Source: Corynebacterium freiburgense (GTDB lineage Bacteria; Actinomycetota; Actinomycetes; Mycobacteriales; Mycobacteriaceae). Taken from it: a stretch of 64,000 nucleotides of DNA. Positions within the stretch are counted from its first letter, which is position 1, and every line of letters begins with the position of its first letter. This document shows positions 2,280-56,617 of this stretch, in pieces. Position numbers and translations under genes: made by a program. The notes below the pieces were generated by a model. That model made no database searches and was not told where the DNA came from. It worked only from the letters and a program-made list of their open reading frames with translations. Location: contig NZ_CP047355.1 of NCBI RefSeq assembly GCF_030408815.1, positions 434,001-498,000 on the forward strand, given 5' to 3'.

Positions 2280-2785
2280 TTCCTTTGGGGGTGGGGTTTG
2301 GGTTTGGGGTTTGGGGTTTGGGAAAGGCAGATTTGCGTTGTGGGCTCCTGGTTCGGGGGTGTAAGCTGGGGAAATGTTGTGGTGGGTTGTGGGTGATGTG
2401 AAATCTGCCTTGTTGGGTGGTGGGGAGTGTCAGATCTGCCTGATTTTCGGGGCGGCGGGCTGGTTTCCCGAGCCTCTGGACCGCTTGACCCGGTGTTTCA
2501 TAGGCGTACCCTATTAAACTAGTGATGTTTTTATCCCGATTGTCGCAGATTCCATAAAATCGGCCGAAAAAATGGAATCTGAGACAGCCCCCGAATAGCA
2601 GCTCGACCAGTACCCCGACCACTACACGATCGGTAGCCCCAAAAGCCAACCACCTCGCAACCGGCCCTCTAAAAGGTCGACCAGCCCCACCCAAACCCAG
2701 GTCACGGGCCACGAGCGCCACAAACCAAGCCACAAACCAAGTCGCAAACCAAGTCGCAAACCAAGCCACAAACTGAACAGAAACA
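2280..2785 (+). repeat. Dispersed intergenic element, family 1, copy A (single hairpin)
   Basis: Shortest copy of a non-coding element also present near 9.0-9.9, 45.0-45.65 and 55.86-56.5 kb. The left arm has AGGCAGATTTG, GGGGGTGTAAGCTGGGG, GAAATCTGCC and CAGATCTGCCTGATTTT. A conserved junction ACCCTATTAAACTAGTGATG leads into one 46-bp palindrome at 2541-2586. The right arm has AACCCAGGTCACGGG and a CCAAACC-rich low-complexity tail, including a 12-bp tandem repeat at about 2718-2772. Open frames crossing it are composed of the repeat text and are not credible genes. The other full copies have three palindromes; this one has one. Confidence 0.85.
2541..2586. repeat. 46-bp palindrome unit, family 1 (copy A)
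   Basis: TGTCGCAGATTCCAT, a 16-bp centre, then ATGGAATCTGAGACA: 14 of 15 positions pair. The centre is itself a small palindrome (TCGGCCGA) flanked by A runs. Confidence 0.9.
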
Positions 2786-9020: not shown

Positions 9021-9890
9021 TGTGAACTCGCCTGGGAAAGTGGAGTGGGTTTTTGTTCTATGGTGCTTGGGGTGGTTTGGGAGGGCTGTGGGTTTGGGGA
9101 TGGCGGGGTGGGAGGGCTGTGGGCAGGACCTTGGGAGTGTTTTGGGCGGGCCTGGGCTGGGCCTAGATAGGCCTAGTCAGGGCCTGGGAAAGGCTCGGGC
9201 AGGCAGATTTGTGTTGTGGGCTTTCGGTTTGGGGGTGTGAGCTGGGGAAATGTTGTGATGGATTGCGGGTGATGTGAAATCTGCCTGATTTCGGGTGATC
9301 GGGTGTCAGATCTGCCTGGTTTTCGGGGCGGGTTGGCTGAAAATTCCAGGGTTTCCCGGGTGTTTGAGTTGGCTTCCTGGAGGGCGGGCTGGTTTCCCGA
9401 GCCTTTGAGCCGCTTTACCTGCAGTTTAATAGGCGCACCCTATTGAACTAGTGATGTTTTCATTCCTACTGTCGCAGATTCCATAAAATCGGCTGAAAAA
9501 ATGGAATTTGTGACAGCAACCCATGTTGTACACAACTATTGACCTGGGGTTTGTCGCAGATTCCATAAAAACAGCGAAAAAAATGGAATCTGTGACAGGT
9601 TCTCTACCTATCGTGTCGCAGATTCCATAAAATCCGCCGAAAAAATGGAATCTGTGACAACACGCCCAACCAGCACCCAAAAAGTCCGGCCAGCGCCCAA
9701 AAAGACTGAGCACATCCTGGCCAGCAGCCCGAAAAGATTAAGCACCTCCCACCCAACCCATATGCACCCCAACCAAATCGCAGGTCACCGGACGCGCAAA
9801 ACCAAACCACAAGCGCAAAACCAAACCACAAGCGCAAAACCAAACCACCGGCCAAAAACCAAGTCACAAACCCCAAAACCCACAAACGAA
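9021..9890 (+). repeat. Dispersed intergenic element, family 1, copy B (longest copy)
   Basis: Begins TGTGAACTCGCCTGGGAAAG, a start shared with copy C (45022). It contains the GGCAGATTTGTGTTGTGGGC left arm, the junction CACCCTATTGAACTAGTGATG, the three-palindrome array (9470-9659), then a right arm with CCAACCAGC/CCAGCGCCCAA repeats, CGCAGGTCACCGGACGCG and three 19-bp tandem repeats (9794-9850). Nothing in it looks like a coding gene; frames running through it encode only the repeat text. It fills the gap between the NrtR-like gene and the DUF4274 gene. Confidence 0.88.
9470..9659. repeat. Triple palindrome array, family 1 (copy B)
   Basis: Three 46-bp units at 9470-9515, 9552-9597 and 9614-9659, each TGTCGCAGATTCCAT...ATGGAATYTGTGACA. 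The 36-bp spacer ends TTGACCTGGGGTT; the 16-bp spacer holds CTACCTATCG. Confidence 0.93.
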
Positions 9891-9938
9891 AGCCAGCCCA
9901 ACAAGCAGGTATCAGCGTATTTAGGGTGGCTGCTGGTT

Positions 9939-24184: not shown

Positions 24185-24261
24185 ACAGTCAGTTTCTTAA
24201 ACTGAGCCCCTTAGGTGTTGAGGGCTGATCAGCCTATCAACCTCGGGTTTGGGGTGGTGGG

Positions 24262-24392
24262 TGATATAAAATTGCCATCTTTTTTAAAAAGTTGCCCTTT
24301 TTGTATCATTGACCTCTGTAAAACCCCAGGTCAGAAAATAGCGAATGGTACAAAATGGAGGGGTTTTTAAAAAAGTTGTATATTTTGTAACA
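24262..24392. repeat. Double palindrome, family 2 (copy 1)
   Basis: Two 47-bp units, 24262-24308 and 24346-24392, separated by a 37-bp spacer. The ends of the first are TGATATAAAA and TTTTTGTATCA; the inner part is rich in T and A runs with GTTGCCC. The spacer contains TTGACCTCTG and AAAACCCCAGGTCA, nearly identical to copy 2 at 36350. The second unit's 3' arm is altered (TTTTGTAACA). It lies between tsaD and a DUF1963 gene. Confidence 0.88.
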
Positions 24393-24443
24393 AATGTACA
24401 CAATGCAAAACTTTTATTTAAGCCTTTGGCCTAGGGCAACCTA

Positions 24444-28821: not shown

Positions 28822-28960
28822 AAATCCCTCGAAATTCAGGCAGATTTTACACGCCCCAGCAGCCGATAAGGCAGATTTCGCGTCGCCTACAATCTGCAGC
28901 CCTGTTTTCCCAGCTCACACCCCCGGAACCAAAGCTCGAAATGTAAATCTGCCTTTTCGC
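28822..28960 (-). repeat. Degenerate partial copy of the family 1 element (left arm only)
   Basis: Read on the minus strand it gives AAGGCAGATTT, GGGGGTGTGAGCTGGG, GCGAAATCTGCC and AAATCTGCCTGAATTTCG in the same order and spacing as the left arm of copies A-D, but with many changes and no palindrome array. It lies between DUF1963 paralogue 4 and groES. The rest of this gap (28649-28821, 28961-29096) holds C-rich low-complexity sequence and nothing recognised. Confidence 0.7.
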
Positions 28961-36310: not shown

Positions 36311-36349
36311 TGTGTGCGGTGCGTTGTTTCTGCTGGTCGCAGGAGCAGG

Positions 36350-36480
36350 TGATACAAAATGGAGGGGTTTTTTAAAAAGTTGCCCTTTTTGTGTCATTGA
36401 CCTCTGCAAAACCCCAGGTCAGAAAATAGCGACTGGTACAAAATAGAGGGGTTTTTAAAAAAGTTGCCCTTTTTGTATCA
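36350..36480. repeat. Double palindrome, family 2 (copy 2)
   Basis: Two 47-bp units (36350-36396, 36434-36480) with a 37-bp spacer. Ends are TGATACAAAA and TTTTTGTGTCA, then TGGTACAAAA and TTTTTGTATCA; centres share GAGGGGTTTTT and GTTGCCC. The spacer has TTGACCTCTG and AAAACCCCAGGTCAGAAAAT as in copy 1. The rest of the gap to 36672 contains a hairpin with GGTCTGCCT and AGGCAGATCC arms (36612-36648). Confidence 0.9.
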
Positions 36481-36672
36481 CTTGTGGTCCGGGGCACTCT
36501 GACAGCCAAGACTCCTTGAAAACACTGTGCAATATAGAAGCATTAGTTTTGTTCGAGAAGTCCAGTGCTTCTACCTCCAGATCGTGCGTTCTGGATCTGG
36601 TCAATGGGTTAAGGGTCTGCCTCCGCTGTGCTTTCGAAGGCAGATCCTTGGCAATTACAACTCCTCGATGTT

Positions 36673-45021: not shown

Positions 45022-45650
45022 TGTGAACTTGCTCGGGAAAGTCTGGAATGTGTCTGGGAAGGCCTAGCCAGGCCTGGGAAAGGCAGATTTGTGTTGTGGG
45101 CTTTCGGTTTGGGGGTGTGAGCTGGGGAAATGCGGTGGTGGGTTGTGGGTGATGTGAAATCTGCCTGATTTCGGGGTGGTGGGGTGTCAGATCTGCCTGA
45201 TTTCGGGGCGGGTTGGCTGGTTTTCCAGTGGTTTGGCTGGCTTTCCGAGCCTTCGGGCCGCTTTCCTGGGTGTTTGATAGACGCACCCTATCAAACTAGT
45301 GACGTTTTCATGTCGAGTGTCGCAGATTCCATAAAATCGCCTTTAAAAATGGAATTTGTGACAGCAACCAACATTGCACACAACTGTTGACCTGGGGTTT
45401 GTCGCAGATTCCATCAAAACAGCGAAAAAAATGGAATCTGTGACAGGTTCCCTACCTATCGTGTCGCAGATTCCATAAAATCCGCCGAAAAAATGGAATC
45501 TGTGACAACATGCCCAACCAGCGCCCCGGGAAGGACCAACTAGCGCCCAACCAGCGCCCAAGAAGGGCCGGCCAGCGCCCAACCAGGCCTAATCAAAAGC
45601 AACCCACAAACCCCAACACCAAGGCCAGCGCAAACCCCCAAAACCCCTGT
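45022..45650 (+). repeat. Dispersed intergenic element, family 1, copy C
   Basis: Starts TGTGAACTTGCTCGGGAAAG like copy B. Left arm GGCAGATTTGTGTTGTGGGC is followed by GGGGGTGTGAGCTGGGG, GAAATCTGCC and CAGATCTGCCTG. The junction CACCCTATCAAACTAGTGACG and the three-palindrome array (45318-45507) follow. The shortened right arm has CCAACCAGCGCCC repeats and lacks the AGGTCACCGG block. It lies between a small membrane protein gene and imuA'. Confidence 0.88.
45318..45507. repeat. Triple palindrome array, family 1 (copy C)
   Basis: 46-bp units at 45318-45363, 45400-45445 and 45462-45507 with spacers of 36 and 16 bp, identical in layout to copy B. The first unit's centre is altered (ATCGCCTTTAAAA). 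Confidence 0.93.
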
Positions 45651-55766: not shown

Positions 55767-55859
55767 TTTTTGGTGGTTGCGGCGGGTTTTGGACTACTTC
55801 CCATTTGTTGAATTCTTTGACTAACTTTTGTGCAGGGTGGGCCGTGGGGCTTTAACGCC

Positions 55860-56505
55860 ACGTATTTCGCTCGGTTGGTCTGGCGAGGGGCTGGTTTTGG
55901 CTTGTTTATGGGGTGGTTTTGGCAGGTGGCCGGTAGGGGTTGTGGTTTGGTTTTTGGCCGGTGGTTTGGTTGTGTGCGTCCGGTGACCTGGGATTTGCTT
56001 AGTGCTGGTCGGTCTTTTTGAGGCTGGTTGGGTGTGTTGTCACAGATTCCATTTTTTCGGCTGTTTTTATGGAATCTGCGACACGATAGGTAGGGAACCT
56101 GTCACAGATTCCATTTTTTTCGCTGTTTTTATGGAATCTGCGACAAACCCCAGGTCAACGATTGTGTGCAATGTTGGTTGCTGTCACAGATTCCATTTTT
56201 TCAGGCGATTTTATGGAATCTGCGACAGTAGGAATGAAAACATCACTAGTTTGATAGGGTGTGCCTATTAAACACCCGGGAAAGCGGCTCGAAGGCTCGG
56301 AAAGCCAGCCAAACCACTGGAAAACCAGCCAACCCGCCCCGAAAATCAGGCAGATCTGACACCCCCCACCCTCAAACCAAGAGCCCACAACACAAATCTG
56401 CCTGCCCAGACCCTTCCACATCAGTCCCGGGCCTCCCAAACTCACAGCCCTAACTCACAGCCCAAACCTCAGAGCTCCCGACGCACCCCTAAACACCATA
56501 GGACA
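55860..56505 (-). repeat. Dispersed intergenic element, family 1, copy D (reverse orientation)
   Basis: Reverse complement of the layout of copy B: right arm with CCCAGGTCACCGGACGC and CCACCGGCCAAAAACCAA (55.86-56.03 kb), array at 56038-56227, the junction with ACTAGTTTGATAGGGTG, then the left arm ending in CAAATCTGCCTG and CTATGGTG text near 56500. Located between the metQ promoter and the peptide-binding lipoprotein gene. Frames in it are repeat text, not genes. Confidence 0.87.
56038..56227. repeat. Triple palindrome array, family 1 (copy D)
   Basis: 46-bp units at 56038-56083, 56100-56145 and 56182-56227. The spacers are 16 and 36 bp, the mirror image of copies B and C. AAACCCCAGGTCA is in the 36-bp spacer. 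Confidence 0.93.
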
Positions 56506-56617
56506 ATAAGCCAGTCCAACTTTTGGGGGTAGGCTCAGTTTTCCGGGGGTGTTGCCACGAACCTCCTGCATGCTTGGGCTAGCCTCGTGGTGACCCACAG
56601 TGAGGAAGAGTTGAGTT

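Follow-up and report, generated by a model that had tools for sequence, protein, structure and literature searches.

What is the palindrome-bearing DNA that recurs in gaps between genes on this Corynebacterium chromosome, and what holds its internal spacing so constant? In the window, meaning the whole 64-kb stretch that was analysed (GC content 50%), the first-pass annotation had reported a near-identical element at 2.3, 9.0, 45.0 and, inverted, 55.9 kb, and had offered three options for it: a structured RNA, a protein-binding array, or a REP/BIME-like element. All four copies are present, with hairpin and junction matches far above controls. The 46-36-46-16-46 array that had been claimed for three of them is exact at 9470-9659 (+), 45318-45507 (+) and 56038-56227 (-), and the varying loop centres that had been quoted were found in the sequence. 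On balance, we consider the element as a whole to be probably a high-copy, non-autonomous MITE-like element with IS3-type ends that carries a DNA-level protein-binding array. The assignment of the ends and the MITE character is highly probable; the array as a putative docking site for a protein on DNA, a reading from sequence, falls just on the probable side. The features of the four copies are as follows, with positions in the window.

2326..2370, + strand: copy 1, left-arm module (GGCAGATTTGTG-like); pattern match at genome 436326-436370, 3 mismatches
2495..2519, + strand: copy 1, small hairpin (GTTTCATAGG..CCTATTAAAC); read from the sequence, conserved across copies
2541..2586, + strand: copy 1, lone 46-bp hairpin, the array cut down to one unit; half-site script
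9023..9050, + strand: copy 2, left terminal repeat, IS3-type; family-motif score 32, best of 20 flank shuffles 12.5
9202..9246, + strand: copy 2, left-arm module; pattern match at genome 443202-443246, 0 mismatches
9424..9448, + strand: copy 2, small hairpin (GTTTAATAGGCGCACCCTATTGAAC); sequence and family consensus
9470..9515, + strand: copy 2, hairpin H1; half-site script
9516..9551, + strand: copy 2, 36-bp spacer with the TTG..CACAA...YTGACCTG motif common to the second species; cross-species comparison
9552..9597, + strand: copy 2, hairpin H2; half-site script
9598..9613, + strand: copy 2, 16-bp spacer (GGTTCTCTACCTATCG); junction pattern and half-site script
9614..9659, + strand: copy 2, hairpin H3; half-site script
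9660..9919, + strand: copy 2, C/A-rich right arm; its right end hardly exceeds noise (score 12, highest of 20 shuffles 11)
45024..45317, + strand: copy 3, left arm, with the module at 45082-45126; weak terminal repeat at the start (score 13.5, best of 20 shuffles 12)
45318..45507, + strand: copy 3, 46-36-46-16-46 array; half-site script
55790..56537, - strand: copy 4, whole element; left repeat at 56537 (29.5, shuffles 12), right repeat at 55790 weak (13, shuffles 12)
56038..56227, - strand: copy 4, 46-36-46-16-46 array; half-site script

The element runs in the order left end, left arm, small hairpin, array (H1-36-H2-16-H3), right arm and right end. The left end is TGAACTTGCCCCCGAAAGTTAGACTGG-like and the right end, on the opposite strand, is TGAACTGCTCCCCGTTTGTTGGACT. 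The left arm is G/T-rich, often with a GGCAGATTTGTG...AAATCTGCC module, and the right arm is C/A-rich; their mean G+T fractions (0.65-0.71 and 0.22-0.34) hold regardless of the directions of the flanking genes, which indicates that the arms belong to the element. The small hairpin has the consensus GTTTGATAGG-CNCAC-CCTATCAAAC. Each 46-bp hairpin consists of two copies of the 15-bp half-site TGTCRCARATTCCAT about a centre that is mostly 16 bp long: among 186 loops, 166 are of 16 bp, 13 of 17, 2 of 14-15 and 5 of 25-28, with none of 18-24. The half-sites alternate in direction at intervals of 31, 51, 31, 31 and 31 bp. The spacers between hairpins are exactly 36 and 16 bp in all 62 three-hairpin clusters, and also in a further copy found by another route (L188); one two-hairpin cluster has a 48-bp spacer instead. 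CRISPR was set aside on inspection, the units being palindromic.

The family has at least 75 copies in the 2.96-Mb host genome by our count: three 46-bp inverted repeats are present in 63, two in 6 and one in 6. This tally is a lower bound, made up of 71 clusters (three hairpins in 62, two in 5, one in 4) from a script that finds half-sites and accepts loops of 11-30 bp, plus four copies reached through other search handles (three hairpins in L188, two in L190, one each in L187 and L189). The copies are spread along the chromosome from 190 kb to 2.94 Mb. A 35-base hairpin pattern with up to 3 mismatches has at least 193 forward and at least 194 reverse matches genome-wide, largely the same places since the pattern is near-palindromic, and the reversed-pattern control has 0; for the 46-base H2-H3 junction the counts are 29 forward and 36 reverse (65 in all; control 0). 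Other parts of the element lead back to the array. The end motif as a handle found 12 places, all 12 with hairpins (three in 10, two in 1, one in 1), and the left module found 35, again all with hairpins (three in 30, two in 1, one in 4), although both patterns were derived from array-bearing copies and so are not fully independent handles. The family that the first-pass annotation recognised is thus real, but its copy number had been understated and its outer ends missed: the 15 copies with both ends measure 510-1026 bp, with a median of 807 bp. Separately, the left-arm GGCAGATTT...AAATCTGCC module has a relative at 28866-28956, inverted and diverged (74% complementary to 45079-45169), which no array adjoins.

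Because the end motifs were first read from copies of the element itself, an external test was required. With up to 2 mismatches, the end motif occurs in 83 of 242 Corynebacterium genomes, the host genome counted, and in several of them it forms inverted pairs about 1.4 kb apart. One such pair (L168 in genome G408) bounds a 1,438-bp interval with ATC on both sides and two ORFs of the IS3 kind, a 269-aa ORF with rve, rve_2, rve_3 and HTH_21 and a 160-aa ORF with HTH_28 and HTH_Tnp_1 among its domain matches. We then compared the flanks of 62 copies with only the 26 bases of the ends of the L168 insertion sequence (IS), counting a score of at least 12 as a match. Left flanks matched the left end of the IS in 22 of 62 and its right end in 2; right flanks matched the right end in 15 of 62 and the left end in 3; the wrong strand was matched 0 times on either side. 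Some left arms align with this IS for about 60 bp, and many copies are without a recognisable end. Where recognisable, then, the ends of the element match those of an IS3-family IS with left/right polarity retained, and the statement in the first-pass annotation that the element matches no IS design does not hold; a match to a known IS end was among the outcomes that the annotation itself had listed as counting against its view. A family end motif, built from the same copies that it scored, gave left ends at 15 or more in 29 of 62 copies and right ends at 12.5 or more in 24, both in 15 and at least one in 38; the left cut-off exceeds all shuffles (maximum 14.5) and the right cut-off lies below the maximum shuffle (14.0).

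IS3 target duplications are 3-4 bp long. Duplications of 3 or 4 bp flank 5 of the 15 two-ended copies, compared with 1.7 expected (p 0.005 in a joint test that was post hoc; taken singly, 3-bp n=3, p 0.06, and 4-bp n=2, p 0.17), and when the right cut-off is raised to 14.5, nine two-ended copies are left, 4 of them with a duplication. Copy 4 in the window has AAAC on both sides, a possible target duplication. These flanking repeats are suggestive of target duplication. Across the arrays of the 71 clusters there were no convincing gene calls; of two overlapping ORF calls, one is short and weak and the other reads as an upstream extension of a neighbouring gene. IS3 proteins compared with 66 element stretches and the window gave weak matches, the best of which is a C-terminal remnant beside the copy at 1939104.

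No close relative of the L168 IS3 transposase was found in the host genome. Three OrfB matches there reach 25-36% identity. Two are interrupted by stop codons, and the open one, the rve match L145, has ends that, read by eye, differ from those of the element. The Y1 transposase domain PF01797 gave 0 matches in the host genome at E 0.001, where the same search was positive in 5 of 14 control genomes. With neither a close IS3 transposase nor a Y1 transposase found, the elements look stranded.

To place the array beyond the host, we searched other genomes. BLAST of 421 bp against 242 Corynebacterium genomes, scoring at most two candidates per genome so that weak relatives may be missed, matched three. 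One is the host, the metagenome-assembled genome (MAG) G549 reaches 77% identity, and the third shares no more than a 22-base motif. A pattern scan with one mismatch of 401 evenly drawn genomes of the family, a sample outside which G549 falls, matched the host genome only. An exact-pattern scan of a collection of 84,980 species, which may omit records of or near the host genome, returned 31 stretches, all from the MAG Corynebacterium sp. S17M_Sa_7, which we take to be the same assembly as G549. A phage or plasmid origin was considered and rejected, with no match in viral_contigs (exact pattern) and none in plasmids or phages (blastn).

The array of this second species, where complete, is 46-36-46-15-46-36-46, with half-site intervals of 31, 51, 31, 30, 31, 51 and 31 bp. 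There are 31 central 15-bp junctions; both 36-bp spacers are present in 15 and one or none in 16, several of these at stretch ends. In 6 of the 31 stretches the units follow one another about 461 bp apart. The consensus of 30 arrays is quasi-palindromic: 102 of its 135 positions agree with the reverse complement. On both sides of the centre the outer half-sites are mostly CAGATT and the next inner ones mostly CAAATT. This mirroring about the array centre suits DNA better than a transcript. The two species have in common the half-site TGTCRCARATTCCAT, most of the spacing and part of the 36-bp spacer (TTGCGCACAA..GYTGACCTG); they differ in arms, loops and central spacer. The first-pass annotation had allowed that copies might occur only in this strain with no conserved spacing in relatives, and the second species keeps the spacing. 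Around its arrays we found no clear trace of IS3-type ends (best local score 14), which suggests that the array there moves or is kept otherwise. We also considered shared insertion sites as a sign of common ancestry. For one of three gaps that we read, the two species have the array on opposite sides of a gene that, from its motif, we take to be the RNase P RNA gene; independent arrival is therefore possible, and shared sites were not used.

Two further repeats came up in these genomes. At L069 in the MAG, the last hairpin and its spacer are tandemly repeated in 82-bp steps, so arrays can also grow by a single unit. In G417, another Corynebacterium, L041 and L043 hold a 27-bp tandem repeat, AGGCAGATCTGACACGGCAGGAAAACC, that has 22 bases in common with the left arm.

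Could the palindromes instead act as RNA, with transcription through the array yielding a small RNA, an attenuator or a terminator? Folding calculations on the 9.0-kb array gave a strong structure (z -10.6 for the + strand, -7.5 for the - strand), but such strength is expected of any inverted repeat. The compensatory changes that the first-pass annotation had suggested looking for were sought in 41 distinct arrays, drawn from the 43 of 62 that are exactly 190 bp: with the commonest pair as reference, 0 of 45 stem pairs are altered on both sides, and 301 of 500 shuffles equalled or exceeded the covariation score. The lean of departures towards G-U is evidence on the side of RNA. In all 62 copies, read on the H1-to-H3 strand, 239 of 270 non-Watson-Crick departures are G-U and 31 are unpaired, and one H1 pair is seen as G-U, A-U and G-C; this lean, however, rests on few ancestral changes that are common to many copies. 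There was no match to Rfam 15 at the gathering threshold in the 64-kb window, and the consensus has no T-run after the hairpins. Three-hairpin elements between tandem genes share the direction of the genes in 11 cases and oppose it in 19 (p 0.20), no clear orientation bias. Together with the mirror symmetry in the second species, these results make a structured RNA improbable. The third option, a REP/BIME element that owes its movement to a REP-associated tyrosine (Y1) transposase, is far less probable still. BIMEs, as outlined in one account, are clusters of REP palindromes, alternating, regularly spaced, intergenic and reported to bind protein (PMC2817692), and our element, itself high in copy, resembles that outline in its alternating palindromic units, regular spacing and intergenic position. 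It differs in its units of 46 bp, whose arms are 15 bp and whose centres are mostly 16 bp, in its exact 36/16 spacing and in recognisable ends of IS3 type, and the RAYT search that had been suggested turned up no PF01797 match in the host genome. Thus, among the three options first offered, the putative protein-binding array is preferred, and the other two are not supported.

The harder question is whether the array is kept by selection or is uniform for another reason. A dead or selfish IS3-type MITE could carry a functionless array made uniform by recent spread and by ectopic conversion among about 200 near-identical hairpins, and recombination among the copies is indeed pervasive. All four gametes occur in 187 of 253 informative site pairs in 43 arrays, hairpin and loop types swap among hairpin positions, and the reduced copies that we read retain whole 46-mers. 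Such heavy recombination explains part of the likeness of the copies and perhaps of the stem conservation. Copies in the host genome differ least in the stems, at 0.000-0.058 substitutions per site, and in the 16-bp spacer (0.015). Values are 0.083-0.164 for loops, 0.127 for the 36-bp spacer and 0.165 for the small hairpin with the junction, and the arms diverge most, at 0.34-0.46. Neither spacer has indels; stems have almost none (about 0.002 or less per site), and arms and loops do contain them. The first-pass annotation had argued for constraint on stems and rigid spacing, and low stem divergence, invariant 36/16 spacers and variable loops bear this out. Between species (43 x 23 arrays, 23 of the 30 second-species arrays being usable), the H2/H3 stems differ at 0.08-0.10, loops at 0.51-0.61 and the 36-bp spacer at 0.36; H1 stems (left 0.30, right 0.12) were dropped because the offset misses H1 in some second-species arrays, where H1 left reaches 0.43 within the MAG. 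Conversion alone would let the stem consensus drift, yet the half-site is the same across species where loops and 36-bp spacer differ at 0.36-0.61, and spacer lengths stay constant while arms and loops change length. As conversion alone leaves the same half-site across diverged spacers unexplained, we infer that the half-sites are under selection, and we hold a functionless array to be rather unlikely. Alternatively, the array could be a host site for chromosome organisation or segregation, older than the IS3 ends and capturing them later in the host species. Its presence in two species with different flanks and the scatter of copies from 190 kb to 2.94 Mb fit this idea. By BLAST, with no more than two candidates scored in each genome, it occurs in only 2 of 242 genomes of the genus, which would be odd for a host-essential site, and we consider this origin unlikely.

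Under the preferred reading, an IS3-type MITE-like element with a protein-binding array, the element would be a unit of about 0.5-1.0 kb, found between genes in the copies examined, that was probably spread in trans by an IS3-family transposase. A candidate protein would bind the 15-bp half-sites, alternating in orientation around A-tract centres, and the A-tracts in the hairpin centres may favour bending. Selection would keep the half-sites and their spacing, and ectopic recombination would shuffle variants among the copies. The half-site intervals come close to whole helical turns (3 and 5), which would let a protein occupy one face of the helix; the loop expansions of about 11 or 22 bp fit the keeping of phase, but the two A-tracts per centre could slip by about 11 bp, so helical phasing is suggestive only. 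A bolder version is a tentative possibility: the array may be a dedicated nucleoprotein site for a putative new binder on one helix face, carried across species on different mobile ends. If that were true, a chromosome-wide set of protein-DNA complexes would have travelled as cargo, possibly organising the nucleoid.

Among known systems, IS3-family IS and IS3-derived MITEs come closest, with the same polar terminal repeats where these are recognisable and a possible 3-4-bp duplication; like the IS3-derived MITEs, our element has no transposase found inside it and many intergenic copies. Its body is a conserved palindrome array, and the array itself was not seen in the L168 IS. In one review, type II MITEs are characterised by similarity limited to terminal repeats, and MITEs by a length of 50-500 bp (PMC10969869). 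Our element is larger than that range and no close transposase was found in the host genome; the length given there is descriptive rather than defining, and we therefore use the term MITE-like. In our view the kind is established and the family new: the element is MITE-like and of IS3 type, and what is unusual is its conserved internal array. Titles and abstract openings, a search that leaves preprints and most subscription papers outside it, contained no published description of such an element.

Pneumococcal BOX elements are built of modular units. The Correia element of Neisseria carries an IHF site inside a MITE body, according to the same review (PMC10969869). The likeness of our element to both is one of description, and it differs from them in being mostly of three units (63 of 75 copies) with invariant spacing in three-hairpin copies. 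In this element the conserved part is the interior, common to two species, while ends and arms decay; MITE bodies are usually regarded as degenerate filler. Should a binder exist, some 200 near-identical sites, distributed about a single chromosome by transposition, would serve as a natural experiment in the spread of protein-binding sites by mobile DNA and would offer direct access to a new DNA-binding protein. Even with no binder, the family remains a clear example of concerted evolution, in an orphaned MITE.

A home-made gene caller based on hexamers placed the 71 clusters, a set without the four later copies, in 33 tandem, 24 convergent and 14 divergent gaps; the window itself has 31, 13 and 12 gene pairs of these kinds. 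Of the three-hairpin elements in convergent gaps, 18 are on the minus strand of the genome and 3 on the plus strand; this holds in both chromosome halves and may be chance.

Finally, two other palindromes resemble the array in part. Outside the counted clusters, L087 (G000:C1:765112) is a shorter palindrome, GTGTCACAGA-N11-TCTGTGACAC, that has the outer half of the half-site in common and may be bound by a host regulator. Another repeat, to all appearance unrelated, has at least three copies (3 of 22 candidates scored): two in the window, at 24260-24397 and 36348-36485, and a third at genome 2422984-2423115. Its geometry is similar: two inverted repeats of about 47 bp, TGRTACAAAA...TTTTTGTRTCA, stand about 37 bp apart by hand count, with TTGACCTC..CAGGTCA in the spacer.
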